Positions 6,450 to 31,013 of a DNA stretch of 64,000 bases are shown here, piece after piece. The position numbers were made by a program, and so were the translations under genes. The stretch is from Agathobacter ruminis (GTDB lineage Bacteria > Bacillota > Clostridia > Lachnospirales > Lachnospiraceae), in NCBI RefSeq assembly GCF_002735305.1, contig NZ_PDYG01000074.1, positions 1 to 64,000 on the forward strand. Direction: 5' to 3'. The notes under the pieces were generated by a model. The model was given only the letters and a program-made list of their open reading frames with translations. It was not told the DNA's origin and ran no database searches. Numbering within the stretch: the first letter of the stretch is position 1; the number at the start of each line of letters is the position of its first letter.

Positions 6450-6493
6450 CCTTTCTATCTTCCTAAGCGGGTTTGGAAATGGTTTTTCCGGTC
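6450..6493 (-). promoter_or_regulatory. 44-bp bipartite phage element, copy B
   Basis: Reading leftward, GACCGGAAAA is followed after 15 variable bases by GCTTAGGAAGATAG. It matches copy A at 30970 in 37 of 44 positions with no gaps. Its 3' end lies 34 bases before the ATG of the 53-residue protein. Confidence 0.7.
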
Positions 6494-6519
6494 GGAGGGA
6501 AATATTTTTTGAAAAAGAT

Positions 6520-6571
6520 TGCCGATGGCGTGTCGCTATAAAAAGGAAGCGATTCGTCACCGGCATTTTTT
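6520..6571. terminator. Large bidirectional hairpin in divergent region
   Basis: Arms 6520-6537 and 6548-6565 are 18 bases each with four mismatches, some of them G-U on RNA. TTTTTT follows on the plus strand and ATCTTTTTC on the minus strand. It lies between the two outward-facing copies of the 44-bp element, so it is either an insulating terminator in the leaders of both replication operons or part of an origin. Confidence 0.6.
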
Positions 6572-6591
6572 ATGAAAGAAATATGTAGGCT

Positions 6592-6635
6592 GACCGGAAA
6601 ATTCATGCTGCAGGGCGCTTAGGAAGTTAGGAGGA
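6592..6635 (+). promoter_or_regulatory. 44-bp bipartite phage element, copy C
   Basis: GACCGGAAAA, 15 variable bases, then GCTTAGGAAGTTAGGAGG. It matches copy A in 35 of 44 positions with identical spacing and ends 38 bases before the primase start codon. Confidence 0.7.
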
Positions 6636-6639
6636 CTCT

Positions 6640-6720
6640 ATGTCCTTACTTTTTAAGAAAAGAGGTTTGAAGTATGCAGATAACCATGTTTACAGCAGAC
6701 TGCACCGGGCAGGCCGCTAA
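6640..6720 (+). CDS. Possible leader peptide overlapping the primase start
   Basis: A 26-codon ORF begins at an ATG that lies 6-8 bases after TTAGGAGG, a better ribosome site than that of the primase itself. It starts MSLLFKKRGLK and ends inside the primase gene in another frame. The ribosome site is formed by the end of repeat copy C. Whether it is translated is unknown; it could tune primase translation. Confidence 0.3.
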   Translation: MSLLFKKRGLKYADNHVYSRLHRAGR

Positions 6721-8947
6721 CTGCAGCTATCCGAACCGGAGGATGGTGACCACGCCGGAGGAAATGCAGGAAGCGGTCCGGTTCGATCATGTCTGCGCTG
6801 AGTACAAAGGGAATTATCGAAGCATCGGAAACTTTGCCAGGTCGGATGTGGTGGTGATGGATATTGATAATGACCACACTGAGGATCCGGCAGAGTGGAT
6901 CACACCGGAAAAGCTGGATCAGATGCTGCCGGATATTTCCTATGTAATTGCCTTCAGCCGTAACCACATGAAGGTGAAGGACGGCAAAGCAGCAAGACCG
7001 AAGTTCCATGTGTATTTCCAGATTACAGAGACATCGGATGCAGGCTGGTACGCAGCGCTTAAGAAAGGAATCAAGAAACGCTTTGATTTCTTCGATGGAA
7101 ATGCGTTGGATGCTGCAAGGTTCATATTCGGATCGGATGCCGGTGAGGTGGTCTGGCATGAAGGCTGGATGACCATCGATGAAGAAGTCGAACCGGACTA
7201 TGAAGAAACGGAAAGCAAAGATCCTGGTGTCAGTTCAGGACCAATCCTGGAAGGCAGCAGAAATAATACAATGAGCCGCTTTGCGGGAAGAGTTCTGAAG
7301 AAGTACGGAGTGACAGACAGAGCAAGGGAGGCGTTTGAACTTCACGCGAGAAGATGTGATCCGCCGCTTCCGGAGGATGAGCTGAATACGATCTGGAACA
7401 GTGCAGTGAAGTTCTACAAAAACACGGTCTGCACACAGCCGGGATATGTAGAGCCGGATGAGTATAATTCGGAATTCGACTCCCTGAAGCCAGAGGACTT
7501 TTCCGACATGGGAGAGGCAAAGGCCTTGATCAAGGAATACCGTGATGAACTTCTGTATACAGATGCAACACAGTTCTTAAGTTATGACGGCATGTGCTGG
7601 AGAGAGAACCGGCAGAAGGCTGTTGGAGCAGTCGAGGAATTCCTGGATATGCAGCTGGTGGAGTCGGGAGATCAGTTTGAGACTGCGGTGGCACATATGC
7701 TGGCCGTGGATCCGTCATTGGATGAGATTACGGTTCGGAAGGGTGGAAGAGCTCTGGAGAAATTGATCACGCCACAGAACGCGGAAGCCTTCGGTGAGCT
7801 ACAGACTGCACGAGCCTATTACGGGTTCGTTATGAAGTATCGGAACTATAAGCATATCGCGGATACGCAGAACACAGCGAAGCCGATGGTGGCAACGGAC
7901 ATCAACCTGTTCGATGCTCAGGAAGATTACCTGAATACACCCGGTGGTACCTATGATCTGGCAAAAGGCTTAAACGGGATGATGCCGCATAAAGCGACGG
8001 ATCTTCTCACCAAGATAACGAATTGTGCTCCAGGCGATGAAGGCAGGCAGCTCTGGGAGGATGCGCTGCAGCTGTTCTTCTGCGGTGATCAGGATCTGAT
8101 CGATTATGTGCAGATGACGGTAGGTATGGCAGCGGTCGGGAAGGTTTATGTGGAGGCTCTCATCATTGCCTATGGTGAAGGCCGCAATGGTAAGTCTACC
8201 TTCTGGAATACGATATCCAGAGTCCTAGGGACATATTCTGGTGCGATGTCGGCAGATTCCCTTACAGCGAATTGCAGAAGGAACGTGAAGCCTGAGATTG
8301 CGGAGCTTAAGGGAAAACGCCTCATTATCGCAGCAGAGCTGGAAGAGGGAACAAGGCTTTCCACTTCTATATTGAAGCAGCTGTGTTCTACGGATCAGAT
8401 CAGAGGTGAGAAGAAATTCAAGGATCCATTCGATTTTACTCCGTCACATACTGCGGTGCTCTACACGAACCATCTGCCGAAGGTCAGTGCATCCGATGAC
8501 GGTACCTGGAGAAGACTGATCGTGATTCCGTTCCATGCAAAGATTGAGGGTTCGTCGGATATCAAGAATTACGCCGACTACCTTTTCAACAATGCAGGTC
8601 CGGCGGTTATGAGCTGGATTATCGAAGGTGCCAAAAAGGTTATCGAGCGTGAGTTCAAGATCGAGCCGCCGAAGGTGGTGGCGAACGCTATTGCTGAGTA
8701 TCGCGGCATGAATGATTGGCTCAGTCATTTCCTGGAGGATTGCTGTGTGACCGGCGATGGCCTGGAGCAGAAGTCCGGTGATCTTTATCAGGAGTACAGG
8801 GCATATTGCCTCCGTACTGGTGAGTATGCACGCAACAATGCGGACTTCATTGCTGAGATTGAGAAGCGTGGTTTTATGCGTAAGAAGAAAAAGTCCGGTA
8901 TGTGGGTGCAGGGATTGCAGCTCAAAGACACGGACTTCGCGGATTAA
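6674..8947 (+). CDS. Phage primase-helicase (VapE/D5-like, SF3 helicase)
   Basis: A 757-residue protein that unwinds and primes phage DNA. The N-terminal part has an archaeo-eukaryotic primase-like core with VVMDIDND (about residue 61) and a downstream conserved RFIFGSDAG. A PriCT-like linker is followed by the D5_N segment and a superfamily 3 helicase: Walker A GEGRNGKST near residue 500, RLIIAAELEEG as Walker B, and AVLYTNHLPKV as the sensor motif. AAGAGG stands 8 bases before the ATG. It opens the rightward replication operon, divergent from the polymerase operon. Confidence 0.92.
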   Translation: MQITMFTADCTGQAANCSYPNRRMVTTPEEMQEAVRFDHVCAEYKGNYRSIGNFARSDVVVMDIDNDHTEDPAEWITPEKLDQMLPDISYVIAFSRNHMKVKDGKAARPKFHVYFQITETSDAGWYAALKKGIKKRFDFFDGNALDAARFIFGSDAGEVVWHEGWMTIDEEVEPDYEETESKDPGVSSGPILEGSRNNTMSRFAGRVLKKYGVTDRAREAFELHARRCDPPLPEDELNTIWNSAVKFYKNTVCTQPGYVEPDEYNSEFDSLKPEDFSDMGEAKALIKEYRDELLYTDATQFLSYDGMCWRENRQKAVGAVEEFLDMQLVESGDQFETAVAHMLAVDPSLDEITVRKGGRALEKLITPQNAEAFGELQTARAYYGFVMKYRNYKHIADTQNTAKPMVATDINLFDAQEDYLNTPGGTYDLAKGLNGMMPHKATDLLTKITNCAPGDEGRQLWEDALQLFFCGDQDLIDYVQMTVGMAAVGKVYVEALIIAYGEGRNGKSTFWNTISRVLGTYSGAMSADSLTANCRRNVKPEIAELKGKRLIIAAELEEGTRLSTSILKQLCSTDQIRGEKKFKDPFDFTPSHTAVLYTNHLPKVSASDDGTWRRLIVIPFHAKIEGSSDIKNYADYLFNNAGPAVMSWIIEGAKKVIEREFKIEPPKVVANAIAEYRGMNDWLSHFLEDCCVTGDGLEQKSGDLYQEYRAYCLRTGEYARNNADFIAEIEKRGFMRKKKKSGMWVQGLQLKDTDFAD

Positions 8948-9135
8948 TGTGAACTGGTGCAGGACGGAAACGGAGTTTATCTCTGTTTTCATCTTGCACT
9001 TCGGTAAACAGGTGCAGGGTATGCAGGATGTTTACATTAATACGCGTACAGGGAAAAACTTGAAAAAATTTCCTGTAGAGGGGGTTATACAGCGTCATGC
9101 ACCCCCTGCACCCAAATTTTGATGGAGGTATAGCG
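8948..9135. repeat. Intergenic region with TGCAGG iterons and a hairpin
   Basis: This 188-base gap holds GGTGCAGGA (8956), GGTGCAGGG (9011), ATGCAGG (9021) and the inverted CATGCACCCCCTGCACCC (9096-9113). A perfect stem TACAGG/CCTGTA with an A/T-rich loop lies at about 9049-9078. The repeats could be replication-initiator or regulator binding sites. No ORF with a ribosome site was found in it. Confidence 0.5.
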
Positions 9136-9345
9136 ATGAGCTTTTACAGATGGATATTAAAGAAGCACATAAACACAATGGCACCGGTGGGCGACCTTGC
9201 GAGAGATATGAAAGAAGACAGCGAATTTCCACGTGACGGAGGGAAAAAGAAAATCCGTCAGTATCTGGAAGCCTGTCACGCCTGCAGCGGATGCATGGAC
9301 GCATTTGATGAAGCGTGGGCTGAGTATGCGAGAGAAAGAAGTTGA
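9136..9345 (+). CDS. YozE-like (SAM-like fold) small protein
   Basis: A 69-residue protein starting MSFYRWILKKHINTMAPVG and continuing with DLARDMKEDSEFP, the pattern of the YozE_SAM_like family. The family is a small helical domain of unknown role, common in Firmicutes and their phages. The ATG at 9136 has GGAGGTATAGCG upstream. A CxxC pair (HACSGCMDAF) near the C-terminus is unusual for the family. It overlaps the VRR-NUC gene by 20 bases. Confidence 0.75.
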   Translation: MSFYRWILKKHINTMAPVGDLARDMKEDSEFPRDGGKKKIRQYLEACHACSGCMDAFDEAWAEYARERS

Positions 9346-9607
9346 GAAAAAGCTGGTGCTGGCGGTCAAGTCCAGAGGCGGCATCTGCCCGAAGTGGGTG
9401 TCGCCGGGATTTGACGGAATGCCTGATCGGATCGTGCTTCTTCCGGGAAGACATTTTGGACTTGTGGAGGTCAAGGCTCCGGGCGAACGTCCAAGGCCTC
9501 TGCAGGTTTCACGGCATCGGCTTCTGATGAGATTAGGATTCCGGGTTTATGTACTTGATGATCCGGAGCAGATTGGAGGAATACTGGATGAAATACAATC
9601 CACATGA
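9326..9607 (+). CDS. VRR-NUC domain nuclease
   Basis: A 93-residue stand-alone VRR-NUC protein. GMPDRIVLLPG supplies the catalytic aspartate and LVEVKAPG the ExK of the PD-(D/E)XK fold, followed by QVSRHRLLMRLGFRVYVLDD. Phage members cleave branched or flapped DNA, and most lie, as here, directly before an SNF2 helicase gene. The start is taken at 9326, giving the usual family length; another ATG lies at 9308. It overlaps both neighbours, so translation is probably coupled. Confidence 0.88.
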   Translation: MREKEVEKKLVLAVKSRGGICPKWVSPGFDGMPDRIVLLPGRHFGLVEVKAPGERPRPLQVSRHRLLMRLGFRVYVLDDPEQIGGILDEIQST

Positions 9608-10964
9608 TTATCAGATATATGCGATCAACTTCATAAAGGAACATCCCATAGCGGCAATCTTGTTGGACATGGGTATGGGCAAGACCAGCATTGTACTGGC
9701 GGCGCTTAATGAGTTGATGTTTGACAGCTTTGAGGTGACAAAGGTGCTGATTATCGCACCACTTCGAGTGGCGAAGCATACCTGGTCTGCAGAAATACAG
9801 AAATGGGATCAGCTGCGTGGGCTTCGGTACTCCATAGCAGTTGGCACTGCAGCAGAGAGGATGAAAGCGCTTCAGGCGGATGCGGACATTTACATTATCA
9901 ACAGAGAGAATGTTCCCTGGCTGATCGAGAAGAGCGGGCTGCCGTTTGACTACGATATGGTGGTGATCGATGAGCTGTCATCCTTTAAGAACTGGCAGGC
10001 GAAGAGGTTCAAGGCACTGATGCAGGTTAGACCAAGGGTGAAAAGAATTGTCGGTTTGACTGGAACGCCTTCCAGCAACGGACTCATGGATCTCTTTGCT
10101 GAATACAAGGTCTTGGATAAGGGAGAGAGACTGGGAAGGTTCATCAGCCAGTACAGGGCCGAGTACTTTGTGCCGGATCAGACGAACGGTCCGATTGTTT
10201 ACAGCTACAGGCTCAGGAAGGGTGCCGATAAGAGGATTTATGACAGGATCTCCGATATCACGATTTCCATGAAGGGAACCGATCACCTGAAGATGCCGGA
10301 ACTGATCAACTCTGAATATCCGGTATATCTGGATGCGGATGAGCGTGAGAAGTATGAGGCGATGGCCAGTGACCTGGTGATCAATCTTCCGGGCGGTGAA
10401 GTAACAGCTGCCAATGCAGCGACGCTTTCCGGGAAGCTGACACAGATGGCGAACGGTGCTGTCTATTCCGATGCCGGCGGTATCGAGTTCATTCACGATA
10501 AGAAGCTGGATGCTTTGGAGGATATCATCGAAGCGGCAAACGGCAAGAGCATTCTTGTTGCGTACTGGTTCAAGCATGACCTGACAAGAATTGTTGAGAG
10601 GCTTGATGCCCTGGGTGTTGTTTACGGAAAGCTTGATTCAGATCAGAGCATTGAGGATTGGAATGCAGGAAGACTGGAAGTAGGGCTTATTCATCCGGCT
10701 TCTGCAGGACATGGTTTGAATCTTCAGAGCGGCGGCAATACGTTGGTGTGGTTCGGTATGATCTGGAGTCTGGAACTGTATCAGCAGACGATAGCTAGAC
10801 TTTGGAGACAGGGACAGGAATCCGGAACGGTCGTGGTGCAGCATATTATTACGGCAGACACAATTGATGAGAGGATATTGAAGGCGCTGTCGCATAAAGG
10901 CGATACACAGTCCAGACTGATTGATGCCGTAAAAGCTGAGGTGAGTGCCTATGGCAGGAAGTAA
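9588..10964 (+). CDS. SNF2-family DNA helicase/translocase, phage
   Basis: A 458-residue SF2 ATPase. The Walker A site is LLDMGMGKTS (about residues 24-33), motif II is VVIDELSSFKN, motif III is GLTGTPSSNGL, and the C-terminal RecA domain ends with QTIARLWRQGQ (motif VI). This composition is typical of the SNF2 protein paired with VRR-NUC in Firmicutes siphophages, probably acting at forks or in recombination. GGAGGAATACTGG precedes the ATG at 9588. It overlaps both neighbours. Confidence 0.9.
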   Translation: MKYNPHDYQIYAINFIKEHPIAAILLDMGMGKTSIVLAALNELMFDSFEVTKVLIIAPLRVAKHTWSAEIQKWDQLRGLRYSIAVGTAAERMKALQADADIYIINRENVPWLIEKSGLPFDYDMVVIDELSSFKNWQAKRFKALMQVRPRVKRIVGLTGTPSSNGLMDLFAEYKVLDKGERLGRFISQYRAEYFVPDQTNGPIVYSYRLRKGADKRIYDRISDITISMKGTDHLKMPELINSEYPVYLDADEREKYEAMASDLVINLPGGEVTAANAATLSGKLTQMANGAVYSDAGGIEFIHDKKLDALEDIIEAANGKSILVAYWFKHDLTRIVERLDALGVVYGKLDSDQSIEDWNAGRLEVGLIHPASAGHGLNLQSGGNTLVWFGMIWSLELYQQTIARLWRQGQESGTVVVQHIITADTIDERILKALSHKGDTQSRLIDAVKAEVSAYGRK

Positions 10965-11235
10965 GAATCTGGCTGAAGATCCATATGAACGATTGGCGAA
11001 TGCCATTGTCCTGCAGGCGGTGGCCGATTACAGGGTGGCGCTGAAGAAGATCAAGGCTCATCCGAAAAATAGAGAGGCAATCAGCGAAGCCTTGGAGATT
11101 GAGAAGTTCTTCCGTTCCGGCTGGTACAGTCAGCTGACAGACGTGGACGGGGAGTATCTGATCCGGAGGCTTCAGGACGAAATAAGACAATCAGAGTCAA
11201 TCCGAGGGAAGAAAAATAAATCCAATCGGAGGTAG
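10951..11235 (+). CDS. Phage hypothetical protein upstream of DUF1492
   Basis: A 94-residue, highly charged and mostly helical protein (MAGSKNLAEDPYERLANAIV). It begins inside the helicase gene (14-base overlap) and ends three bases before the next start. The segment ADYRVALKKIKAHPKNREA followed by EIEKFFRSGWYSQLT is a pattern I recall in clostridial phage proteins at this same place, without assigned function. Context suggests a role in regulation or replication. Confidence 0.65.
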   Translation: MAGSKNLAEDPYERLANAIVLQAVADYRVALKKIKAHPKNREAISEALEIEKFFRSGWYSQLTDVDGEYLIRRLQDEIRQSESIRGKKNKSNRR

Positions 11236-11238
11236 CTT

Positions 11239-11670
11239 ATGAACAAGCATCAGGTAGCAGCTAAGAAATATTTGTCGCAGGCCTTTGGACTGAACCAGCG
11301 TATCGAGAGCAAGCTGGGGCAGATTGAAGAACTTCATGATCTGGCAACCAAAGCGACCGTGACATATTCGGATATGCCGAGGAATCCGAACAAGGGACAT
11401 TCCCGTTTGGAAGATGCGGTGATAAAGATTATCGAACTTGAAAACGAGATCAATAAGGATATGGTGGAGCTGGTTGAACTGAAGAAGGATATTATCCGCA
11501 GGATCAAAGCTGTGGAGAGTACAGAGCTTCAGACAGTATTGGAGCTCAGGTACCTGTCGTATATGAGATGGGAAGAGATTGCCATTGAACTAGGATACGG
11601 CATCGATAATGTTTTCCGACTTCACAGGAATGCCCTGGACGAAATCAAGATTCCGAAAACAATACAGTAA
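11239..11670 (+). CDS. DUF1492/ArpU-RinA-like late transcription regulator
   Basis: A 143-residue protein with a long N-terminal coiled coil (residues about 1-95) and a C-terminal helix-turn-helix like sigma region 4 (VLELRYLSYMRWEEIAIEL then DNVFRLHRNAL). Proteins of this kind sit at the end of the early region of Firmicutes phages and, by analogy with RinA and ArpU, activate the packaging and structural operon. The direct repeats and promoter-like sequence starting inside its last codons fit that role. CGGAGGTAGCTT precedes the ATG. Confidence 0.8.
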   Translation: MNKHQVAAKKYLSQAFGLNQRIESKLGQIEELHDLATKATVTYSDMPRNPNKGHSRLEDAVIKIIELENEINKDMVELVELKKDIIRRIKAVESTELQTVLELRYLSYMRWEEIAIELGYGIDNVFRLHRNALDEIKIPKTIQ

Positions 11671-11715
11671 AATCAAGTTCGATACAGTAAGCCTATGTGA
11701 TATTGTTAAAATGGC
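11662..11715 (+). promoter_or_regulatory. Candidate late promoter with two ATACAGTAA repeats
   Basis: ATACAGTAA occurs at 11662-11670 and again at 11682-11690, start to start exactly 20 bp, two helical turns. GTGATATTGTTAAAAT downstream contains a possible extended -10 (TGATATTGT), and no good -35 is present, as expected for an activator-dependent late promoter. It stands between the DUF1492 regulator and the packaging genes. Confidence 0.5.
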
Positions 11716-11733
11716 AAAAGGCTAAGATGAAGG

Positions 11734-11768
11734 AGCCGTTACGGACACAGAATCCGTGGCGGCTTTTT
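11734..11768 (+). terminator. Hairpin with T-run before HNH gene
   Basis: AGCCGTTACGGA pairs with TCCGTGGCGGCT (one mismatch) and TTTTTCT follows. It lies between the candidate late promoter and the HNH gene, so it may be a terminator that the late transcript must pass or an early-transcript stop. Confidence 0.65.
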
Positions 11769-11790
11769 CTGTGGGAAAGAAGGTGGACAG

Positions 11791-12156: not shown

Positions 12157-12159
12157 GGG

Positions 12160-12245: not shown

Positions 12246-12265
12246 AGGAAGGAGGGCGATGCTCT

Positions 12266-12736
12266 ATGGCTGGTAGAAAGCCGAAGCCTACAGCGGTAAA
12301 AAAGCTGGAAGGCAATCCGGGAAAGAGAAAACTGAACACAAAAGAACCGAATCCGGGTAAGGGAATGCCCGACTGCCCTGCATGGTTATTGCCGGAAGCG
12401 AAGACAGAATGGATCCGGTTATCGGAAAAACTGAATCAGATGGGAGTACTGACGGAGATCGACCGGTCTGCATTTGCAGCCTATTGTCAGTCTTATGCCA
12501 GATGGAAAGAGGCTCAGGAACATATCAATTCCGAGGGTGCTACCTATGAAACGGAGAATGGTATGCAGAGACCGAATCCGTGGGTTGCGATCTGTAACAC
12601 GGAACAGCGACTGATGATGCAGGCAGCATCCGAGTTTGGACTGACTCCATCGGCAAGATCGAGGATCATGGCGGCATCCGGTGTTGGCAAGGACGAAGAA
12701 GATGAGATGGAGGCATTACTTGGGGGTGAGGCTTAA
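12266..12736 (+). CDS. terS: Phage terminase small subunit (P27 family)
   Basis: A 156-residue P27-family small terminase that recognises phage DNA for packaging. It begins MAGRKPKPTAVKKLEGNPGK, the hallmark of the family, and has FAAYCQSYARWKEAQ in the helical core and ATYETENGMQRPNPWV before the C-terminal helices. The ATG at 12266 is chosen by family start and lies about 11 bases after AAGGAGGG. Its stop overlaps the large subunit start by one base (TAATG). Confidence 0.9.
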   Translation: MAGRKPKPTAVKKLEGNPGKRKLNTKEPNPGKGMPDCPAWLLPEAKTEWIRLSEKLNQMGVLTEIDRSAFAAYCQSYARWKEAQEHINSEGATYETENGMQRPNPWVAICNTEQRLMMQAASEFGLTPSARSRIMAASGVGKDEEDEMEALLGGEA

Positions 12737-14361
12737 TGGCGGAGAGAAGACCTGCGGGTTATCCGAAGCTGAAGAATTATAAGCCGTCGAGATTTATGCT
12801 TCCGACATCTCATTATGATAAAGCGAAGGCTGACAGGGCTGTGAAGTTCATAGAGAACCTATGCCACACTAAAGGTAAATGGGCAGGCAAGAGGTTCTGG
12901 CTGCTTCCCTGGCAGGAGCAGCTGATCCGTGACATCTTTGGGATCGTCAAACCTGACGGGTACCGGCAGTTCAGGACAGCCTTTGTGGAAATATGCAAGA
13001 AGGTAGGTAAGAGCGAATTGGCAGCAGCCGTCGCTCTTTATCTTTTATATGCAGATAATGAACCTTCTGCTGAAGTCTATGGCGCTGCGGCTGACAGGCA
13101 GCAGGCCAGCATCGTTTTCGATGTGGCAAGGCAGATGGTGGAGATGTCGCCGGCGCTTCTGAAACGGTCGAAGCTGATGACGGCAACAAAGAGAATCGTG
13201 AATTATGGAAATTCAGGATATTACCAGGTGCTCAGTGCAGAGGTCGGGGGTAAGCATGGATTTTCAGTCAGTGGATTGGTGTTTGATGAGATTCATACAC
13301 AGCCGAACAGGCAGCTGTATGACGTTCTGACAAAGGGATCTTCGGATGCCAGACAGAATCCGCTGCATTTCATTATCACCACGGCAGGTACCGACAGGCA
13401 TTCCATCGCCTATGAGCTTCATACGAAAGCGGTGGACATTCTGGAAGGCCGGCGTGTGGATCCGACTTTCTATCCGGTGGTCTACGGACTGAAGGATGAT
13501 GAGGACTGGGAGGATGAAGCAAATTGGTACAAGGTCAATCCTTCGCTGGGATACACCGTGGATATCGAACGTTTGCGTGATGCCTACCGGGAAGCAAAGC
13601 AGAATCCGGCAGACGAAGTGACCTTCAAGTGGCTGAGGCTGAATATGTGGGTTTCAAGTACTGTGGCATGGATACCGGATGCGATATTCATGAAGGGTAA
13701 CGAAGAGATTGATCTGGCCGCGCTGGAAGGCAGGGACTGTTATGGCGGTCTGGACTTATCCAGCACTGGAGATATCACGGCTCTGGTTCTGATGTTTCCT
13801 CCGAGAAATGAGGATGAGAAGTATATCCTGCTTCCGTTCTTTTGGGTTCCGGAAGAGACAATACCACAGAGGGTAAAGGCAGCATCCGTTCCTTATGACA
13901 TCTGGGAGAGGCAGGGATACCTGTTATCGACCGAGGGCAACGTGATCCACTATGACTTCATTGAGAAGTTCATCAACGATTTGGCGGAGAAATACCACAT
14001 CGTTGAGATCGCAGTGGACAGATGGAACGCCACACAGATGATCCAGAACCTGGAAGGTGATGGCTTCACGATGGTTCCATTCGGCCAGGGCTTTGCTTCA
14101 ATGTCTGGACCGACAAAGGATTTTTATCGTCTGCTTATGGAAGGCAAGATCATTCACGGAGGGCATCCGGTTCTCAGGTGGATGGCAGGCAACGTGGTAG
14201 TCGATACGGATCCTGCCGGGAATATCAAGGTAACGAAGGCAAAATCAAAAGAGAAGATTGATGGCATTGTGGCTGCAATCATGGCACTTGACCGATGCAT
14301 ACGCAATCAGACGGAGCCGCAGGGGAGTGTTTATGATGAGCGCGGATTACTTGTATTTTGA
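12736..14361 (+). CDS. terL: Phage terminase large subunit
   Basis: A 541-residue packaging motor of the Terminase_1 family. The ATPase domain has the modified Walker A EICKKVGKSELAAA (about residues 80-95) and Walker B VFDEIH (about 180). The C-terminal RNase H-like nuclease has YGGLDLSSTGD (about 336-346) and IAVDRWNA (about 423), carrying the metal-binding aspartates. With a P27 small subunit and an adjacent HNH this points to cos packaging. Confidence 0.93.
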   Translation: MAERRPAGYPKLKNYKPSRFMLPTSHYDKAKADRAVKFIENLCHTKGKWAGKRFWLLPWQEQLIRDIFGIVKPDGYRQFRTAFVEICKKVGKSELAAAVALYLLYADNEPSAEVYGAAADRQQASIVFDVARQMVEMSPALLKRSKLMTATKRIVNYGNSGYYQVLSAEVGGKHGFSVSGLVFDEIHTQPNRQLYDVLTKGSSDARQNPLHFIITTAGTDRHSIAYELHTKAVDILEGRRVDPTFYPVVYGLKDDEDWEDEANWYKVNPSLGYTVDIERLRDAYREAKQNPADEVTFKWLRLNMWVSSTVAWIPDAIFMKGNEEIDLAALEGRDCYGGLDLSSTGDITALVLMFPPRNEDEKYILLPFFWVPEETIPQRVKAASVPYDIWERQGYLLSTEGNVIHYDFIEKFINDLAEKYHIVEIAVDRWNATQMIQNLEGDGFTMVPFGQGFASMSGPTKDFYRLLMEGKIIHGGHPVLRWMAGNVVVDTDPAGNIKVTKAKSKEKIDGIVAAIMALDRCIRNQTEPQGSVYDERGLLVF

Positions 14362-21364: not shown

Positions 21365-24190
21365 ATGGCTGGCAGAATCCAGGGTATTACCGTTGAGATC
21401 GGCGGCGATACTACCAAACTACAAACTGCCTTAAAGGGCGTAAATACAGAGATCAGGAATACGCAGAGCCAGCTGAAAGATGTCGATAAGCTCCTGAAAC
21501 TTGATCCGGGGAACACGGAACTGCTTGCTCAGAAGCACAGACTCCTGGGGGATGCCGTTAAGGAAACGAAGGAAAAGCTGGAGACCTTGAAGACGGCTGC
21601 CGAACAGGCAGAGCAGGCACTGAAGGACGGAACGATTACGCAGGATCAGTATGATGGCCTGCAGCGTGAGATCGTTGAAACGGAACAGAAGCTGAAGTCT
21701 TTGGAGGAACAGGCGAAGCAGTCTGGAACGGCTCTTCAGGAAATCGCCGCTAAGGGTGAGAAGCTGAAGACAGTCGGAGATAATGTCACAAACGTAGGAA
21801 AGAAGTTCCTTCCTGTGACGGCAGGTGTTGTTGGGCTTGGCACGGCGGCGGTGAAAACTGCCGCTGATTTTGATTCTGCCATGAGCAAGGTTGCTGCGGT
21901 ATCCGGTGCGACAGGTTCGGATTTGGAAGCATTAAGAGATAAAGCCCGTGAGATGGGTGAGAAGACAAAGTTCTCTGCATCAGAAGCGGCGGAAGCCATG
22001 AACTATATGGCGATGGCCGGTTGGAAGACAGAGGATATGCTTTCCGGTATCGAAGGTGTCATGAACCTGGCTGCGGCTTCCGGTGAAGATCTGGCTACCA
22101 CTTCTGATATCGTGACAGATGCGCTAACAGCGTTTGGACTTACGGCGAAGGACTCCGGGCATTTCGCGGATATCCTTGCGGCGGCATCGAGTAATGCCAA
22201 TACGAATGTCTCCATGATGGGTGAGACCTTCAAGTATTGCGCTCCGATTGCTGGTGCCTTGGGATTCTCTGCAGAAGATACGGCAGAAGCGATCGGCCTG
22301 ATGGCCAATGCTGGTATCAAGGGTTCTCAGGCAGGTACTTCTCTCAGAACGATCATGAATAACCTTTCCGGAGAAGTGAAGATCTGCGGGTCTTCCATCG
22401 GAGAGGTTACGGTAGCGACGACCAATGCGGACGGTTCCATGAGAGATCTGTCGGATATTCTGGCTGATTGCAGGACAGCTTTTGCAGGTCTTACTGAATC
22501 CGAGAAGGCACAGGCGGCTGAAAGCCTGGTTGGCAAAAATGCGATGTCCGGATTCCTGGCACTGATGAACGCCGGGGAAGCGGATATTGAAAAACTTTCG
22601 TCTGCTATTGATAACTGTGATGGTTCTGCAGCAAGTATGGCCGAGACCATGAATGACAACCTTGCGGGTCAGATGCAAATCCTGAAGTCACAGCTGGAAG
22701 AGCTGGCAATTTCCTTTGGTGAGCTGCTGATGCCTGCGATCCGAACCATTGTCGGCTGGATCCAGAAGTTTGTGGACTGGCTTAATTCGATGGATGAGGG
22801 AACCAGGAAGGTTATTGTCACGATTGCCCTGGTGGCGGCAGCGATTGGACCGATACTGATCATAGTCGGTAAAGTGATCTCTGCTGTTGGTACTATTATG
22901 ACGCTGGTTCCGAAGCTGGCAGGTGTGATCAATGCAGCAAAGGGAGTATTTGCTGCATTTAATGCGGTATGCGCGGCAAATCCGTATGTGCTGATCATAG
23001 CGGCGATCGTTGCGCTGGTGGCAGCCTTCATTTATCTCTGGAATAACTGTGAAGAGTTCCGGCAGTTTTGGATTGACCTGTGGGAGAGTATCAAAGAGAT
23101 TGCCATTGCTGTATGGGAAGCACTGAAAGCATTCTTCCAGGCAGCGTGGGAAGCGATAAAGACCACTGCAACAACGGTGTGGAATGCGATAAAGGATTTC
23201 TTTACCGGGCTGTGGGATGGTATCAAGAATATCTTCACGACGGTGGTAAATGCGATCAGCACGTTCCTGACCAATGCCTGGAATGCGATCAAAAATACCG
23301 TGACTACGGTGTTCAATGCGATCAAGACATTTTTCACGACAGTCTGGAATGGAATCAAGTCGGTTATCACGACAGTGGTGAATGCGATTTCCACCTTCCT
23401 GACTACGGCTTGGAATGGGATCAAAACCGCGATAACTACGGTACTGAATGCAATCAAAACTGCGGTTACTACGGTCTGGAACGGCATCAAGAATACGATC
23501 ACAACTATTGTGAACGCAATCAAAAATGCAGTCACGACAGCCTGGAATAATATCAAGTCTGCGGTATCAAATGCAGCCAACGCCATAAAGAATGCCGTGT
23601 CCAATGCCTTCAATGCGATGCTGAATGGCATCAAGAATGTCTGCGGAAATATTTATGGTGTGGTGAAGGGCGGATTTGATAAGGCAATCAATTTCGTGAA
23701 GAACCTGGCATCGCAAGCGTTCCAGTGGGGCGCTGATTTTATAGGCGGTATCGTGAACGGTATCAAGTCTATGATCGGTAAGGTCGGTGAGGCAGTTTCT
23801 TCCGTTGCGGATAAGATCAGGAGTTTCCTGCATTTCTCCGTACCGGATGAAGGACCGCTTACGGATTATGAGAGCTGGATGCCGGACTTTATTGGAGGAC
23901 TTGCGAAGGGCATTGAAAAGAGCCGGGGCATGATCGAGAATGCCATGAACGGAGTGACATCTGATCTGACCATTACTCCGAGGGTAATGGCAGCTCAGGG
24001 AGGTTATTCTGGGTCGGCTGCATCAAACGGTGATCTGATCTCCGGCATCAATACAGCACTGAATACGGCTCTTGCGGGCGGAGGTGCTGCAGGGGATATC
24101 GTGATACCGGTTTATATCGGCGGTGACATGATCGATGAGATTGTGGTGACGGCTCAGCAGAGAATGAATCTAAGAAGTGGAGGCAGGTAA
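21365..24190 (+). CDS. Tail tape measure protein
   Basis: A 941-residue protein that sets tail length. Residues 1-130 are a charged coiled coil (KGVNTEIRNTQSQLKDVDKL). A TP901-type tape measure core follows (AAADFDSAMSKVAAVSGATG as the hallmark, about residues 165-480). A hydrophobic stretch lies at about 485-560. From about 595 to 745 there are tandem 11-residue units of the type W-x-x-I-K-x-x-x-T-T-V. A conserved end, SFLHFSVPDEGPLTDYESWM, sits at about 820-842. AAGGAGGTTGAGAC precedes the ATG. Confidence 0.93.
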   Translation: MAGRIQGITVEIGGDTTKLQTALKGVNTEIRNTQSQLKDVDKLLKLDPGNTELLAQKHRLLGDAVKETKEKLETLKTAAEQAEQALKDGTITQDQYDGLQREIVETEQKLKSLEEQAKQSGTALQEIAAKGEKLKTVGDNVTNVGKKFLPVTAGVVGLGTAAVKTAADFDSAMSKVAAVSGATGSDLEALRDKAREMGEKTKFSASEAAEAMNYMAMAGWKTEDMLSGIEGVMNLAAASGEDLATTSDIVTDALTAFGLTAKDSGHFADILAAASSNANTNVSMMGETFKYCAPIAGALGFSAEDTAEAIGLMANAGIKGSQAGTSLRTIMNNLSGEVKICGSSIGEVTVATTNADGSMRDLSDILADCRTAFAGLTESEKAQAAESLVGKNAMSGFLALMNAGEADIEKLSSAIDNCDGSAASMAETMNDNLAGQMQILKSQLEELAISFGELLMPAIRTIVGWIQKFVDWLNSMDEGTRKVIVTIALVAAAIGPILIIVGKVISAVGTIMTLVPKLAGVINAAKGVFAAFNAVCAANPYVLIIAAIVALVAAFIYLWNNCEEFRQFWIDLWESIKEIAIAVWEALKAFFQAAWEAIKTTATTVWNAIKDFFTGLWDGIKNIFTTVVNAISTFLTNAWNAIKNTVTTVFNAIKTFFTTVWNGIKSVITTVVNAISTFLTTAWNGIKTAITTVLNAIKTAVTTVWNGIKNTITTIVNAIKNAVTTAWNNIKSAVSNAANAIKNAVSNAFNAMLNGIKNVCGNIYGVVKGGFDKAINFVKNLASQAFQWGADFIGGIVNGIKSMIGKVGEAVSSVADKIRSFLHFSVPDEGPLTDYESWMPDFIGGLAKGIEKSRGMIENAMNGVTSDLTITPRVMAAQGGYSGSAASNGDLISGINTALNTALAGGGAAGDIVIPVYIGGDMIDEIVVTAQQRMNLRSGGR
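23145..23625 (+). repeat. 33-bp/11-residue tandem repeats in tape measure gene
   Basis: About fourteen degenerate 33-bp units encode blocks like FTTVWNGIKSV and TTVVNAISTFL. They match tape-measure repeats whose number sets tail length and could expand or contract by recombination. Confidence 0.75.
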
Positions 24191-24191
24191 G

Positions 24192-24554: not shown

Positions 24555-24612
24555 TTTGCTGTTATGATTATGCTCTTCCCTGACGAAAAATAAAAAAAGA
24601 TGAAAAAGGCTA

Positions 24613-24643: not shown

Positions 24644-24674
24644 ATCTTCATCAAGAAACAGGAGGATGATCATA

Positions 24675-25538: not shown

Positions 25539-25561
25539 TCAGATATGATTGAGTAAAGAGT

Positions 25562-25590
25562 AAAGGGATCGGGAAACCGGTCCTTTTATT
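25562..25590 (+). terminator. Terminator of the MerR cargo gene
   Basis: AAAGGGATCGG pairs with CCGGTCCTTTT around GAAA, with TTTTATT on the 3' side. It closes the independent MerR transcription unit before the next tail gene. Confidence 0.7.
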
Positions 25591-25612
25591 ATGTCCGGAG
25601 GGAGGTGGTCAT

Positions 25613-27496
25613 TTGTATCCGGTCAGCAATGCTTTCCTGGAGGCGGTGAAGGCGAATACAAGAAAATATTATTGGACCGGCAGGATCACAACGACTGCCG
25701 GAACGGTTTATGAGTTTGATCAGGATGATATGGTCAAGGGCAGCGGATATATTACCAGTCAGTGCTGCGGATCCACGGAGATTGAGTTGGGAACAGTGTA
25801 TGCTGCGGAGATGGGGGTTTCTCTTTTCTCTGAGCTCAACCGGTATACGCTGGAAGATGCAAAGGTGGAGCTGTTCTATCATCTGCAGGTGGCAGGCGGC
25901 TCTTATGAGCGGATTCCGATGGGAATCTTCGAAGTATCGGAGGCGAACCGGAAAGCGAAGTGTCTGGAGATCAAAGCCTATGACTACATGGTGCGGTTCG
26001 AGAAGGCTTTTACTTCTCTGGAATCCATCGGTAACGCTTATGACTTTATGGTGCTATGTTCAACTGCCTGTGAAGTGACGCTTGCTCAGGACAGGGCAAC
26101 CATTGAGGCAATGCCGAATGGGACGGAGAACCTGTCCATCTATTCTGATAATGATATTGAGACTTACCGCGATGTGCTGTTCTATGTGGGACAAGTGCTT
26201 GGCGGTTTTTTCGTGATCAACAGAGCCGGGGAGCTGGAGCTTCGGAAGTATGGGAACACGCCGGTGCTGACAGTTGAGAGGAAGCACAGGTTCACTTCCA
26301 GCTTTTCGGATTTTATCACGAGATATACGGCGGTCAGTTCAACGAACCTTCGAACACAGATTGCGGAGTATTATGCGCTAGATCCGGATGACGGGCTGAC
26401 GATGAACCTGGGCGTGAATCCGCTTCTGCAGTTCGGTCTGGAAGAGACCAGGCGGCAGCTTTGCACAAATATCCTGAATGATCTGGCCGTGGTGAACTAT
26501 GTTCCGTTTGATTCGGATACCATCGGGAATCCGGCACTGGATGTTGGCGATGTTTTGTCATTCAGCGGTGGACAAGCGGACGCTACGAAGTATGCCTGCA
26601 TTACATCGAACAGCATAAAGATCGGAGGCAGGCAGAGTATCAAGTGCGTGGGAAAGAATCCGAAGCTGTCCCAGGCAAAGAGTAAGAATGATAAGAACAT
26701 CTCCGGGCTGCTGGCTCAGATCGAGGCAGGGAAGATCGGGATTCATACCTTCACCAATGCATCGGCATTCACGGTGGCGGATGTGGATACGAAGATCATT
26801 TCCATCGAGTTTGCTACGACTGAAGCGAACCATGCGCAGTTCTTCGGGCAGGTGATAGTGGATGTGACAGCTCAGCCGGTGACAAGGTCTGTTACAGCAT
26901 CCGGGGATGTGGTGATTCCGTCTGTCCCTGTTGATGATCTGCCGGTGGATCCGGATGATCCTGAAGAAGAGCCGGTAGTGATCGGCAATACGGAAGAGCA
27001 GACGATAACAATATCTCTTCCGATGAGCTGGCAGGAGGATGGTCATGCGGATGTGATTTTTTCCTTTGAGTTCAACAATCAGATGATCCCGGTGCATTAT
27101 CCGCAGGAGAACTGGCACTCCGGAAGACACACGATCCTTCTGTATTATCCAATCGAGGATGTGGTGCCAAACTACACGAATATCTTCAATGTCTACATGC
27201 GATGCGAGGGCGGCACGGCTGCGGTGGATACCGGGATGTGCATTGCTTCCATTTCCGGCCAGAGCATGGGCGCTTCGGCGGCATGGGATGGCAGGATTGA
27301 TATTGAAGAGTATGTAGATCTGTTCAGGATCGGTAATGGTTCTCAGACTGACAGGCTTCAGGTGAGGGCATTTACCGAGAGTGATGTCTGGGAAATCAAG
27401 GAGACTGTGAAGCGGTTCTACTCTGATGTGAAGTCGGGAAGAACAGGCGTAGGCGGATTCGCTATGCCGGTGGATGTGCCGGGAAGTAACACTTAA
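25613..27496 (+). CDS. Large tail tip/baseplate protein
   Basis: A 627-residue protein starting at TTG 25613, supported by GGAGGGAGGTGGTCAT directly before it. The N-terminal half has hub-like features (YYWTGRITTTAGTVYEFDQD, VSLFSELNRYTLEDAKVELF, then IPMGIFEVSEANRKAKCLEI), a pattern I connect with tail-associated (Tal/DUF5048-like) proteins. An acidic proline linker (DDLPVDPDDPEEEPVV) divides it from a beta-rich C-terminal half that may bind host carbohydrate. It likely forms the tail tip. Confidence 0.75.
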   Translation: MYPVSNAFLEAVKANTRKYYWTGRITTTAGTVYEFDQDDMVKGSGYITSQCCGSTEIELGTVYAAEMGVSLFSELNRYTLEDAKVELFYHLQVAGGSYERIPMGIFEVSEANRKAKCLEIKAYDYMVRFEKAFTSLESIGNAYDFMVLCSTACEVTLAQDRATIEAMPNGTENLSIYSDNDIETYRDVLFYVGQVLGGFFVINRAGELELRKYGNTPVLTVERKHRFTSSFSDFITRYTAVSSTNLRTQIAEYYALDPDDGLTMNLGVNPLLQFGLEETRRQLCTNILNDLAVVNYVPFDSDTIGNPALDVGDVLSFSGGQADATKYACITSNSIKIGGRQSIKCVGKNPKLSQAKSKNDKNISGLLAQIEAGKIGIHTFTNASAFTVADVDTKIISIEFATTEANHAQFFGQVIVDVTAQPVTRSVTASGDVVIPSVPVDDLPVDPDDPEEEPVVIGNTEEQTITISLPMSWQEDGHADVIFSFEFNNQMIPVHYPQENWHSGRHTILLYYPIEDVVPNYTNIFNVYMRCEGGTAAVDTGMCIASISGQSMGASAAWDGRIDIEEYVDLFRIGNGSQTDRLQVRAFTESDVWEIKETVKRFYSDVKSGRTGVGGFAMPVDVPGSNT

Positions 27497-27506
27497 GGAG
27501 GTTGCG

Positions 27507-28907
27507 ATGAAGAGATATACAGGAAATCTGGTTATTGAGCTGGAAGACCAGAATACAGGAACGATTGAGACGGTATCGGAGACCAATATGGTCACCAATG
27601 CCGTCAATGACATTCTGGGAGTAAATCCGATGGGTGTCATGTATAAAGCCGGCGGACAATATGATGATTCCTTGACATGGAATCAGGAGTTGCTTCCGAT
27701 TTGTCCGAATATGATCGGCGGCATCCTGCTTTTTCCGAGTTCCATTACGGAGCAGGCGGATAACCTTTATCTGCCGTCAACGAATCTGCCGGTGGCTTAT
27801 GCCAGTAATGATGTCAATGCTACGGCGAACACAAAGCGCGGGAGCATGAATCTGACAGAGAGCATGAAGCTGTCGGATGGGTTTAAGTTTGTCTGGGAGT
27901 TTACGCCTTCGCAGGGTAACGGTACGATCGCAGCTGTCGGGCTGACATCAAAACATGGTGGGGCGAATGCTTATGGATCTGAGGTGGCGGTGGATTCTAC
28001 ACTGCTTCAGATTAAGAAGGTCAGCCTGGATGATGGGGACGGCTTCATCAATGACCTGTATCGTTGTGTGACGGTTGATTTTGAGAATGCGAAGCTGTAT
28101 GCACTTTGCTATGCAAGCAACACTGTGACAATCAAACGTTACAGGATTCCGGTATTTGATATCGGTCTGAATGAGAAGCTGGATGACAGTACGCTTACTT
28201 TGGAGGATACGACAGTCCTCCAGTGCAGCACTTTTCATTTCTACGGAAGCTATACGCCATATGGAATCTTTATGGATGGTGGCGATGGGTACTGGTATGG
28301 ATTTGCCAACCAGGGCAATTCTTCCGGCAGCGCAACAGTACTGTGGATCAAGATCAGGAAGAGTGATTATACATTTACGGAAGGTCAGTGGACGCTTTCC
28401 AATGCAACGCTGATGACGATGGGAAGCTTCAAGGAAGGTTCGAGTTATCCTTCCGGGAACAGAAGCGCTGTGGTAAGGAACGGATATCTGTATGTGCCTT
28501 CTTATGACAAGACCGGCGTATATAAGATCAATATCTCAAACAGTACGGATGTGACGCTGATCAGCTTGGGGTTCACATCGACCATGAAGTGCCTGGGTGA
28601 GACGGGAAGCTGCGATTGCTGCATGTCCATCATCAATGACATTATCGTGGCTTATGATTTTGAGATTGATGTGAATGATAACGTGATTGCCACATTTGCC
28701 GGGGAGAGATGCGGGAATGTTTCCACACCGTTCTTCCGGTATAAGGAATATGTCTTTGCCTGGGGCGGAGCTTATTTGAACCAGTACAGGTACACATGGA
28801 TCCTGACTCCTTATCTGGCTACCATCTGCAATCTGAGTCAGGCGGTGGTAAAGAATGCGGATAAGACGATGAAGATCACTTATACACTGACGGAGCAGAC
28901 GGTGTAA
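27507..28907 (+). CDS. Tail fibre/receptor-binding candidate
   Basis: A 466-residue protein beginning MKRYTGNLVIELEDQNTGTI, then SETNMVTNAVNDILGVNP. The rest is beta-rich without coiled coil or collagen repeats (for example FKFVWEFTPSQGNGTIAAVG and FAWGGAYLNQYRYTWIL). Place between the tip protein and holin suggests an upper baseplate or receptor-binding protein. AAGGAGGTTGCG precedes the ATG at 27507. No named family is recognised. Confidence 0.7.
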   Translation: MKRYTGNLVIELEDQNTGTIETVSETNMVTNAVNDILGVNPMGVMYKAGGQYDDSLTWNQELLPICPNMIGGILLFPSSITEQADNLYLPSTNLPVAYASNDVNATANTKRGSMNLTESMKLSDGFKFVWEFTPSQGNGTIAAVGLTSKHGGANAYGSEVAVDSTLLQIKKVSLDDGDGFINDLYRCVTVDFENAKLYALCYASNTVTIKRYRIPVFDIGLNEKLDDSTLTLEDTTVLQCSTFHFYGSYTPYGIFMDGGDGYWYGFANQGNSSGSATVLWIKIRKSDYTFTEGQWTLSNATLMTMGSFKEGSSYPSGNRSAVVRNGYLYVPSYDKTGVYKINISNSTDVTLISLGFTSTMKCLGETGSCDCCMSIINDIIVAYDFEIDVNDNVIATFAGERCGNVSTPFFRYKEYVFAWGGAYLNQYRYTWILTPYLATICNLSQAVVKNADKTMKITYTLTEQTV

Positions 28908-28936
28908 GCTCCGGTAACTGAATAATCTGTTTTCGA

Positions 28937-28960
28937 GGGATGGCTTCGGCTGTCCCTTTT
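28937..28960 (+). terminator. UUCG-loop terminator before holin
   Basis: GGGATGGC pairs with GCTGTCCC around TTCG and TTTT follows. Probably limits read-through from tail genes into the lysis cassette. Confidence 0.65.
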
Positions 28961-28988
28961 AGTTTGTAACGAAATGGAGGGATTTGCG

Positions 28989-29420
28989 ATGAAAGAGTTT
29001 TGGAATGTGATTCAGGCAATCTTTGCGGCGGTAGGCGGCTGGCTTGGTTATTTCCTTGGCGGCTGTGACGGCCTGCTTTATGCGCTTCTGGCTTTTGTGG
29101 TGCTGGATTACATCACCGGGATCATGTGTGCAGTGGCGGATAAGAAACTGTCGAGCGCTGTGGGGTTCAAGGGAATCTGCAGGAAGGTGCTGATCTTTGC
29201 GCTGGTAGGTATCGGGCATTTGCTTGATACACAGGTAATCGGGAGCGGGAGCGTCTTAAGGACAGCAATCATTTTCTTCTATATCTCCAATGAAGGATTG
29301 TCGCTGGTGGAAAACGCGGCATATCTGGGACTTCCGATTCCTACGAAGCTGCACAAGGTGTTAGAACAGCTCCATGACAGGGCTGAGAAGGAAGATGAGA
29401 AAAAGGATGGTGAGGAATAA
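28989..29420 (+). CDS. Holin (phage_holin_4/TcdE-like)
   Basis: A 143-residue membrane protein with about three hydrophobic segments (roughly residues 8-26, 28-48, 70-90) and a charged C-terminal tail (HDRAEKEDEKKDGEE). The family signature LLAFVVLDYITGIMCA and GFKGICRKVLIFALVGIGH is that of the toxin-secretion/phage lysis holins. It makes the membrane lesion that frees the endolysin. GGAGGGATTTGCG precedes the ATG. It overlaps the endolysin start by one base. Confidence 0.9.
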   Translation: MKEFWNVIQAIFAAVGGWLGYFLGGCDGLLYALLAFVVLDYITGIMCAVADKKLSSAVGFKGICRKVLIFALVGIGHLLDTQVIGSGSVLRTAIIFFYISNEGLSLVENAAYLGLPIPTKLHKVLEQLHDRAEKEDEKKDGEE

Positions 29421-30913
29421 TGGCATACACGAACAGTTCTATGGTGGCTTATACGAAGCTGAGTCCGAACCATTCCGGGCAGAGGACGATGGCGATTGAC
29501 AGAATCACGCCGCATTGTGTTGTGGGTCAGTGTACAGCGGAAGGTCTGGGAGACTGGTTCGCAAAGAGCAGCACACAGGCATCCAGTAATTACGGCATCG
29601 ACAAGGATGGGCGTGTCGGGATGTATGTTGAGGAAAAGAACCGTTCCTGGTGTTCTTCCAGTAATGCCAACGACCAGAGGGCGATCACAATCGAGTGTGC
29701 TTCCGATGCTACGGAGCCGTATACTTTCAGGGATGTGGTGTATAAGAAGCTGATCGAGCTTTGCATCGATATCTGCAAGCGTAACGGGAAGAACAAGCTG
29801 ATCTGGTTCGGGGACAAGGACAAGACGCTGAATTATTCTCCGAAGAGCGGCGAGATGATACTGACGGTTCATCGGTGGTTCGCGAATAAGTCCTGCCCTG
29901 GAAACTGGATGTACGCAAGGATGGGAGATTTGGCAGAGAAGGTGACGAAGGCTCTGCAGGGATCTTCTGATTCCGGAGGTGGTTCGGCTGCAAAGGGAAT
30001 GCAGGCCTCCGTTCTGAAGAATCTGTCTGAGGCGGATGCGATTAAGAATGTCGGTGCTTTGTTCACGGCTGATCAGGAGAAAAGCGGCATCCTGGCATCG
30101 GTATCTTTGGCTCAGTTCATTCTGGAATCCGGGTATGGAAAGAGTGAGCTGGCTCAGAATGCCAATAATATCTTCGGGATGAAATGCAGCCTGTCCGGTA
30201 ATGCTTGGAACGGATCCAGTTGGGATGGCAAGAGCAAGTACACAAAGAAGACACAGGAACAGCACACGGACGGAAGCTATGAGACGATCACGGCGGATTT
30301 CCGCAAGTATTCCTGCATTGAGGATTCCATTGCCGACCATTCCGCTTATCTGCTTGGGGCGATGAACGGAAAGAAGCTGAGATATGACGGGCTGAAGGGA
30401 TGCACGGATTATAAGAAGGCAGTCCAGATTATCAAGGATGGCGGGTATGCTACAAGCCTGACCTATGTGGAGAAGCTTTGCTCCATCATCGAGAAGTGGA
30501 ATCTGACTCAGTATGACACGAAGGAATCCGGCGGAGAAGTTATCCGCTGGTATCGTGTCAGGAAGTCCTGGACGGATGCCAAGAGCCAGAAGGGAGCCTA
30601 TAAGATTCTGGACAATGCGAAGAAGTGCGCGGATCAGAATCCGGGATACAAGGTATTCGACGCTGACGGCAAGGTGGTGTATGAGCCGAAGGCGGCGGAG
30701 CCTGCAGTGAAGGTGTCGTTTCTGGTGAAGGTCAGCATCTCTGATCTGAATATCAGGAAGGGTCCGGGAACCGATTATGACAGGGTTCAGTTTATCCCGA
30801 TCGGAGTATACACGATCTTAGAAGTCCGAAGTGGAAAAGGCAGCTCTGCCGGATGGGGCAGGCTGAAGAGCGGAATCGGATGGATCTCGTTGGATTTCGT
30901 CCGTAGGATTTAA
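29420..30913 (+). CDS. Endolysin: amidase + glucosaminidase + SH3
   Basis: A 497-residue two-enzyme lysin. Residues 10-175 are an N-acetylmuramoyl-L-alanine amidase (ITPHCVVGQCTAEGLGDWF, TIECASDA, and SCPGNWMY holding the last zinc ligand region). Residues 195-370 are a glucosaminidase (LASVSLAQFILESGYGKSEL and NNIFGMKC). A SPOR-like segment (about 375-425) and a bacterial SH3 domain (ISDLNIRKGPGTDYDRVQFI) follow for wall binding. No signal peptide, so export depends on the holin. Confidence 0.93.
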   Translation: MAYTNSSMVAYTKLSPNHSGQRTMAIDRITPHCVVGQCTAEGLGDWFAKSSTQASSNYGIDKDGRVGMYVEEKNRSWCSSSNANDQRAITIECASDATEPYTFRDVVYKKLIELCIDICKRNGKNKLIWFGDKDKTLNYSPKSGEMILTVHRWFANKSCPGNWMYARMGDLAEKVTKALQGSSDSGGGSAAKGMQASVLKNLSEADAIKNVGALFTADQEKSGILASVSLAQFILESGYGKSELAQNANNIFGMKCSLSGNAWNGSSWDGKSKYTKKTQEQHTDGSYETITADFRKYSCIEDSIADHSAYLLGAMNGKKLRYDGLKGCTDYKKAVQIIKDGGYATSLTYVEKLCSIIEKWNLTQYDTKESGGEVIRWYRVRKSWTDAKSQKGAYKILDNAKKCADQNPGYKVFDADGKVVYEPKAAEPAVKVSFLVKVSISDLNIRKGPGTDYDRVQFIPIGVYTILEVRSGKGSSAGWGRLKSGIGWISLDFVRRI

Positions 30914-30914
30914 G

Positions 30915-30963
30915 AATGACGGCTGGTGGAGACTGAGTTCTCTGCTGGCCGTTATTTTTTTTG
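30915..30963 (+). terminator. Strong terminator at end of lysis module
   Basis: GACGGCTGGTGGAG pairs with CTCTGCTGGCCGTT (with G-U) and is followed by a run of eight T. It ends the late operon. Confidence 0.85.
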
Positions 30964-30969
30964 CCTTCT

Positions 30970-31013
30970 GACCGGAAAAATAATTCCCAAAGGCGCTTAG
31001 GAAGATAGGAGGG
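30970..31013 (+). promoter_or_regulatory. 44-bp bipartite phage element, copy A
   Basis: GACCGGAAAA, 15 variable bases, then GCTTAGGAAGATAGGAGGG. It begins a few bases after the T-run of the lysis terminator and ends 34 bases before the start of the 64-residue protein. Confidence 0.7.

Follow-up and report, generated by a model that had tools for sequence, protein, structure and literature searches.

A class-specific bipartite element ahead of three prophage gene units and its probable role as a lytic promoter

A bipartite DNA element was found three times in a prophage carried by the window (the whole 64-kb stretch of DNA that was analysed), each time ahead of a gene unit. The element is probably the promoter of a lytic regulon, read by RNA polymerase together with a phage-class-specific factor that would switch the three units together. 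The observations on which this reading is based are the sequence of the element, its spacing and position, the concordance of its class within a phage, the terminators upstream of it and the lack of sigma-A promoters. Given that each phage lineage has its own version of the element at nearly all of its sites, it is probably an on-switch for leaving dormancy. The prophages in question are found in Lachnospiraceae of the gut and in numerous streptococci. The element names their switch genes and offers a sequence for purifying the factor, and, since close relatives differ by natural class swaps, specificity can be tested directly.

The element and its place in the prophage

The motif GACCGGAAAA-N15-GCTTAGGAAG matched exactly at 6459-6493 (minus strand), 6592-6626 (plus strand) and 30970-31004 (plus strand), with 0.00 matches expected by chance and no match to the two-block motif in shuffled sequence. 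When up to 3 mismatches were allowed, the whole 64-kb window still contained just these three copies, and no further copy was present in the host genome (2.86 Mb, 134 contigs). The three copies listed in the earlier note were thus borne out at their positions, and its identities to the third copy of 37/44 and 35/44 over the 44 bp were agreed when counted by eye. The full copies are as follows.

6450..6493, minus strand, copy P_L, ahead of the leftward replication operon: block 1 GACCGGAAAA at 6484-6493, spacer, block 2 GCTTAGGAAG at 6459-6468, purine-rich tail
6592..6635, plus strand, copy P_R, ahead of the primase operon (motif match)
30970..31013, plus strand, copy P_X, the third site, ahead of a 64-aa gene and serine recombinases (motif match)

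The gap from the end of the copy to the ATG is 33 bases at P_L (ATG 6416, minus strand), 38 at P_R (ATG 6674) and 34 at P_X (ATG 31048), so that the 34-38 bases claimed previously hold for P_R and P_X and not for P_L. The A/G-rich tail noted after block 2 is real and recurs in relatives.

Gene content suggests that the prophage extends from ~1.85 to 35.1 kb of the window. Leftward, the order is the first small gene, phrog_408, exonuclease, ssDNA-binding protein, 71-aa protein and DNA polymerase A; rightward, it is primase, nuclease, SNF2 helicase, ArpU/DUF1492 protein, terminase, further phage genes and lysin. Past the lysin gene come a terminator, the third element, the 64-aa gene and two large serine recombinases. 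The features used below are:

1878..3899, minus strand, family A DNA polymerase
3920..4135, minus strand, small protein, 71 aa, with a membrane-spanning look by eye
4209..4811, minus strand, ssDNA-binding/annealing protein, Enc34 type
4792..5913, minus strand, exonuclease (DUF2800/PD-(D/E)XK)
5906..6271, minus strand, phrog_408 gene, 121 aa
6255..6416, minus strand, gene 1 of the leftward operon, 53 aa, phrog_3280
6520..6565, unstranded, long hairpin between the divergent P_L and P_R, likely a bidirectional terminator (-23.6 kcal/mol, z -4.37)
6674..8947, plus strand, primase/helicase (D5_N, phrog_1883)
9549..10964, plus strand, SNF2-type helicase
11239..11670, plus strand, sigma-70 region 4-like ArpU/DUF1492 protein (phrog_36)
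30912..30969, plus strand, intrinsic terminator after the lysin gene, ending right at P_X (fold z -6.25)
31048..31242, plus strand, 64-aa gene 3' of P_X, by position a candidate recombination directionality factor
31315..31343, plus strand, TTGAAA-17-TATAGT, a sigma-A-like promoter with a TG preceding its -10, upstream of the recombinases
31404..33380, plus strand, large serine recombinase 1
33377..35080, plus strand, large serine recombinase 2

The TTGAAA-17-TATAGT sequence was one of two such matches in the stretch searched, where 1.1 were expected. To the right of the recombinases, a RhuM-family gene directly adjoins them (35131-36144), and host-type genes also lie on that side. A repeat with 33- or 66-nt spacing occurs eleven times within 23141-23619, inside a large gene at 21365-24190 that likely encodes the tape-measure protein. 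The gap between the ssDNA-binding protein (SSB) and polymerase genes of relatives usually holds variable small genes, several of them membrane-spanning by eye; no small gene was found there in L078 and L138.

Sequence classes in related phages

The exact motif was present in 21 stretches of viral contigs. In prophages of Lachnospiraceae and Streptococcus the element stands ahead of the same units, namely the divergent replication operons and the excision/integration genes, and the same architecture recurs around primase relatives (leaders were read at 53 of 80 loci, 138 being confirmed) and in annotated phages. Three Streptococcus phages (Javan244, Javan269 and Javan8) and one from Lachnospiraceae (PV036455) have an element with a block 1 resembling CGGAA(AA/TT) and a block 2 of CTTA/CCTA, in two tandem copies before the leftward operon and again before the primase; the element also lies ahead of excision/recombinase genes in all but Javan8, the record of which stops before that region.

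A strict class A pattern recovered 44 stretches in named genomes, mostly of Lachnospiraceae but also of other Clostridiales, Streptococcus, Mogibacterium and Periweissella, and a gene of this phage group lay ≤3.5 kb from the element in 42 of them. Class A pattern matches numbered 89 distinct ones, of which two, in unrelated loci (L034, L039), were chance. Exact patterns searched in 397 genomes of the host family matched in 3 for class A (the genome of the window included) and in 2 for class B. With 3 mismatches allowed, the exact motif matched in 45 of 145 genomes of relatives, by eye mostly background, with a convincing case in G005. Side by side with these results, at 14 loci read around relatives of the primase in the genus and in other Lachnospiraceae, one of which gave no leader, class A-D and H patterns matched 0 times. 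Homologous phages without the exact motif before the same genes, an outcome that the earlier note had set against its own proposal, do occur, but another bipartite motif stands there instead.

In the leaders read, phages without the class A motif have these other motifs at the same places in the same layout. Eight classes (A-H) were distinguished, the window phage being class A; the blocks of the others are:

Class B, ATCGGAAAA..ACCTAG
Class C, TCGGAAT..GGGAACTTTA
Class D, TTCCGGTCA..CTGTCC
Class E, ATCGGAA..GGGAACTTA
Class F, CAGAAAA..TCTCCT
Class G, CCGCTATTTTT..GTCTTTAG
Class H, GACTAAA..CCCCTAGTAGG

Classes A, B, C and E have largely the same block 1 (CGGAA), and GGGAACTT is found in both C and E; most of the difference between classes lies in block 2 and the flanks. 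The blocks are conserved and the spacer is variable, and its length, as registered, does not vary within any one phage or class. In 70 sites from 21 phages, a set that omits Javan93, Javan639 and G164, mean identity within a phage was 0.94 and 0.89 for the two blocks and 0.47 for the spacer, compared with 0.71, 0.50 and 0.26, respectively, between classes. Block identity within phages was 0.908 in the same set, as against 0.668 (sd 0.012) on reshuffling of sites, and 0 of 2000 reshufflings reached the observed value; this comparison is partly circular because it was by their similarity within a phage that classes B-H had been picked out by eye. The permutation for class A alone is not circular, its sites having been found with a common pattern, and gave 0.930 against 0.807 (sd 0.012), again with 0 of 2000 reaching the observed value.

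Classes also differ between close relatives. L072 (class C) and L070 (class D) are 83-86% identical on either side over ~10 kb, and the similarity breaks only over a control region of ~260 bp. Given that close relatives differ in class in this way, phages swap the control cassette much as they do immunity regions. The terminase large subunit (window 12736-14361, L056, L072) is 99-100% identical across different control classes, which suggests recent module exchange.

Two further observations concern the region between the divergent elements. In L246 (G005:C40, about 28000-30500), an otherwise similar prophage, P_R is set apart from P_L by a 2.6-kb insertion, the genes of which, judged by eye, specify a small CopG-like protein and a nuclease-like one of 236 aa. 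A hairpin with a CTTCCT/AGGAAG-type stem and a TATAA-like loop was seen by eye in the window, L135, L137, L084 and L138; it spans classes and hosts, and may be more than a terminator, possibly a replication origin.

Promoter anatomy and the operator alternative

Promoter features were surveyed at 90 sites, located with patterns that missed classes D and F and the phage L079, after three chance matches had been dropped. Across these sites the A/T fraction was 0.90 at 10-20 bp before block 1, the position of an UP element, and the 12 bases after the element were 76% purine. In the register chosen, T-A follows the block-1 hexamer by 17-19 bp in every class (T-T at two class F sites), and a sigma-70-type geometry would fit, with blocks ~17 bp apart, A/T-rich sequence upstream and T-A at -12/-11. 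None of the 90 sites reached a sigma-A promoter score of 10/12, the mean being 6.59 compared with 7.37 in mononucleotide shuffles, and in 6300-6760 of the window 0 sigma-A promoters (TTGACA/TATAAT, 16-18 bp apart) were found where 0.6 were expected. Given that one terminator ends at P_X and that a hairpin separates P_L from P_R, it is simplest to suppose that transcription begins at the element or beyond it. Judged from sequence, the anatomy would fit a promoter whose -35 and -10 blocks are non-standard: the geometry is that of a promoter, but the sequence is foreign. Both the earlier suggestion of a protein-binding site or a promoter for a non-standard RNA polymerase and the suggestion that the element is the control element of the prophage are supported by its conservation ahead of the same genes, its fixed spacing, the upstream terminators and the lack of sigma-A promoters.

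In the proposed mechanism, block 1 (CGGAAAA in the window phage) would occupy the -35 place and block 2 (CTTAGGAAG) would cover the -10 position, and both would be read by RNA polymerase with a phage-class-specific factor, an activator or a sigma-type protein. A single such factor, presumed to exist, would turn on the leftward replication genes, the primase and what follows it, and the excision gene or genes. The effect would be activation and not repression, and transcription would start ~7 bp after block 2. Against this, the AGGAGG that immediately follows block 2 in L084 and L075 seems to serve as a ribosome site, in which case a start at 7 bp would cut the AGGAGG and little room would be left for a start.

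The available part of an account of T4 middle promoters describes an activator box that replaces the -35 element at replication-gene promoters (PMC6755090), and block 1 would likewise stand in the -35 place at replication genes. T4 keeps its -10 element, however, whereas block 2 varies from class to class in the present phages; neither a MotA nor an AsiA family was found among the phage ORFs scanned. Among the matches listed for literature on these phages and on phage promoters (titles and the starts of abstracts), no description of the element was found. In the paper on Phi1207.3, a member of the group (PMC4260502), the terms "repressor," "lysogeny" and "promoter" occur 0 times each, and no account of how these phages hold or break lysogeny was found. 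The element is therefore not assigned to any named system, and the kinds to which it can be referred are a phage lytic promoter and a class-switching control region.

It is possible, if doubtful, that the element is instead an operator bound in the lysogen by a class-specific repressor (or an excision or immunity protein), which would silence all three units and make the classes immunity groups. Class switching is concerted across distant sites, and the L072/L070 swap is confined in the way that immunity regions are. Cluster A mycobacteriophages, in the part of the source available, have asymmetric sites with a phage-specific consensus common to one genome and matched to its repressor, and relatives fall into heteroimmune classes (PMC6550527). 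The likeness is that here, too, the sites of one genome have their own class sequence and related phages differ in class. The difference is that cluster A has up to 30 sites and a known repressor, whereas the present phages have 3-5 bipartite, fixed-spacing sites before gene units and, unlike cluster A, yielded no cognate protein. Operators normally overlap a recognisable sigma-A promoter, and none was seen at the element. In agreement with the earlier note, which saw no CI repressor, no repressor family was recognised among 20 phage ORFs of the window, a set that included a minority of the structural genes. Finally, no gene following class in both bacterial families was found among the class A, B, E and H phages compared, in which late genes were compared by similarity only and some records are incomplete (G150 ends inside recombinase 2; Javan8 and Javan29 stop before the recombinases).

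The third site and the search for a recogniser

Elements were read in both regions of 19 phages. The third site was of the same class as the other sites in 16 of these (the window phage, Javan244, Javan269, Javan122, Javan618, Javan424, G172, PV036455, L081/L194, G005, G150, G176, G158, G171, Javan101 and Javan25), mixed in 2 and discordant in 1. The gene behind it varies: a 64-aa gene, SHOCT_2, HTH-zinc, DUF6870, a recombinase directly, or a Tn916-type xis. Of the 44 strict class A stretches, 13 have the last of these (PF09035, 3e-19) at 61-115 bp from the element, and 5 contain a relative of the 64-aa gene. We read the third site as an excision promoter, and its position suggests that the 64-aa protein may be a recombination directionality factor.

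Several phages count against the lytic-promoter reading. Contig G164 has class A at P_L and P_R and class C at P_X, and may join two phages because its ends fall in neighbouring genes, one of them nearly identical between phages. Javan93 and Javan639 are class H elsewhere, and at the third site carry a pair of class A-like elements and then one of class H:

L258 33999-34170 (Javan93) and L263 35242-35420 (Javan639), three elements in tandem, of two classes, ahead of the HTH-zinc and SHOCT genes

Leaders of the 64-aa gene in 3 of 10 relatives (L131-L133) contained no class A-H element recognised by eye, and the stretch read around the recombinases of G159 and G163 contained none of these classes. 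Further classes or loss are possible explanations for all five; the leaders of L131 and L132 are alike and could carry an additional class. In the Anaerosphaera phage PV036460, the related primase of which sits inside an operon, none of the classes was recognised.

In an unlikely variant of the promoter reading, the factor would come from the host or co-resident elements and not from the phage core genome, and the control regions would be interchangeable cassettes. The stacked classes of Javan93 and Javan639 would then let a prophage leave upon induction of a phage of the other class.

That the element is transcribed as a leader RNA and governs the translation or termination of these genes, a reading akin to the structured leader offered in the earlier note, is quite improbable. 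The primase leader of the window folds so as to pair part of block 2 (single-sequence fold, z -2.16; the other two leaders gave z -1.27 and -1.25), and AGGAGG follows block 2, two points in its favour. However, RNAalifold predicted no pair over 15 primase leaders, there was no Rfam match at gathering score, and the outer of the two tandem leftward copies has, by eye, no gene of its own before the inner copy. The absence of a consensus structure and of an Rfam match told against the earlier proposal. An antisense or trans-acting RNA was also considered and rejected: the two blocks together had no further copy in nine phages, and one-block near-matches look like background.

Small sigma-like proteins of Firmicutes phages, of the PBSX Xpf/ArpU type, direct phage promoters, their role being in late genes. 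That the sigma-like ArpU/DUF1492 protein of these phages reads the element is hardly credible, although a phrog_36 protein occurs in 5 of 5 relatives checked and that of the window matches sigma region 4 and ArpU below curated cut-offs, since it is 85-97% identical to the class A protein of the window in L061, L056, L069, L072, L070, L078 and L080 (classes B-F), with the same HTH stretch in alignment, but only 30-52% identical in L064, L075 and L073 of class A itself (38% in L079, class C). Specificity is thus not set by the sigma-like protein as in an ArpU/Xpf regulon.

The primase and phrog_408 likewise do not follow class, which, with the absence of a recogniser, is a further point against the lytic-promoter reading. 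Primases of classes C and D are 94% identical, and in the phrog_408 alignment 2 of 121 residues distinguish L016 (class A) from L069 (class C). Among the other early genes compared, none tracked class. Other candidates were rejected on similar comparisons. The small SSB-polymerase genes are of the same 71-aa type in classes A, B, C and D. The serine recombinases of G150 and G176, both class B, are unrelated (25%), and those of G150 and G158 (class E) are 92% identical. A 178-aa gene that appeared class B-specific is also found in class E (95%) and is missing from the class B phages L055, L056 and L077 as available. Searches of the window and of Lachnospiraceae class B-F pieces gave no match to the HTH-zinc protein. 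Host species was rejected as the determinant, S. agalactiae having phages of class A (Javan8, Javan29) and class H (Javan25). The factor would either change specificity by few residues, or lie outside the compared set, or not be phage-encoded.

Within the streptococcal set, the HTH-zinc gene (most clearly), SHOCT, the recombinases, the primase and the first small gene follow class H, a pattern that shared descent also explains.
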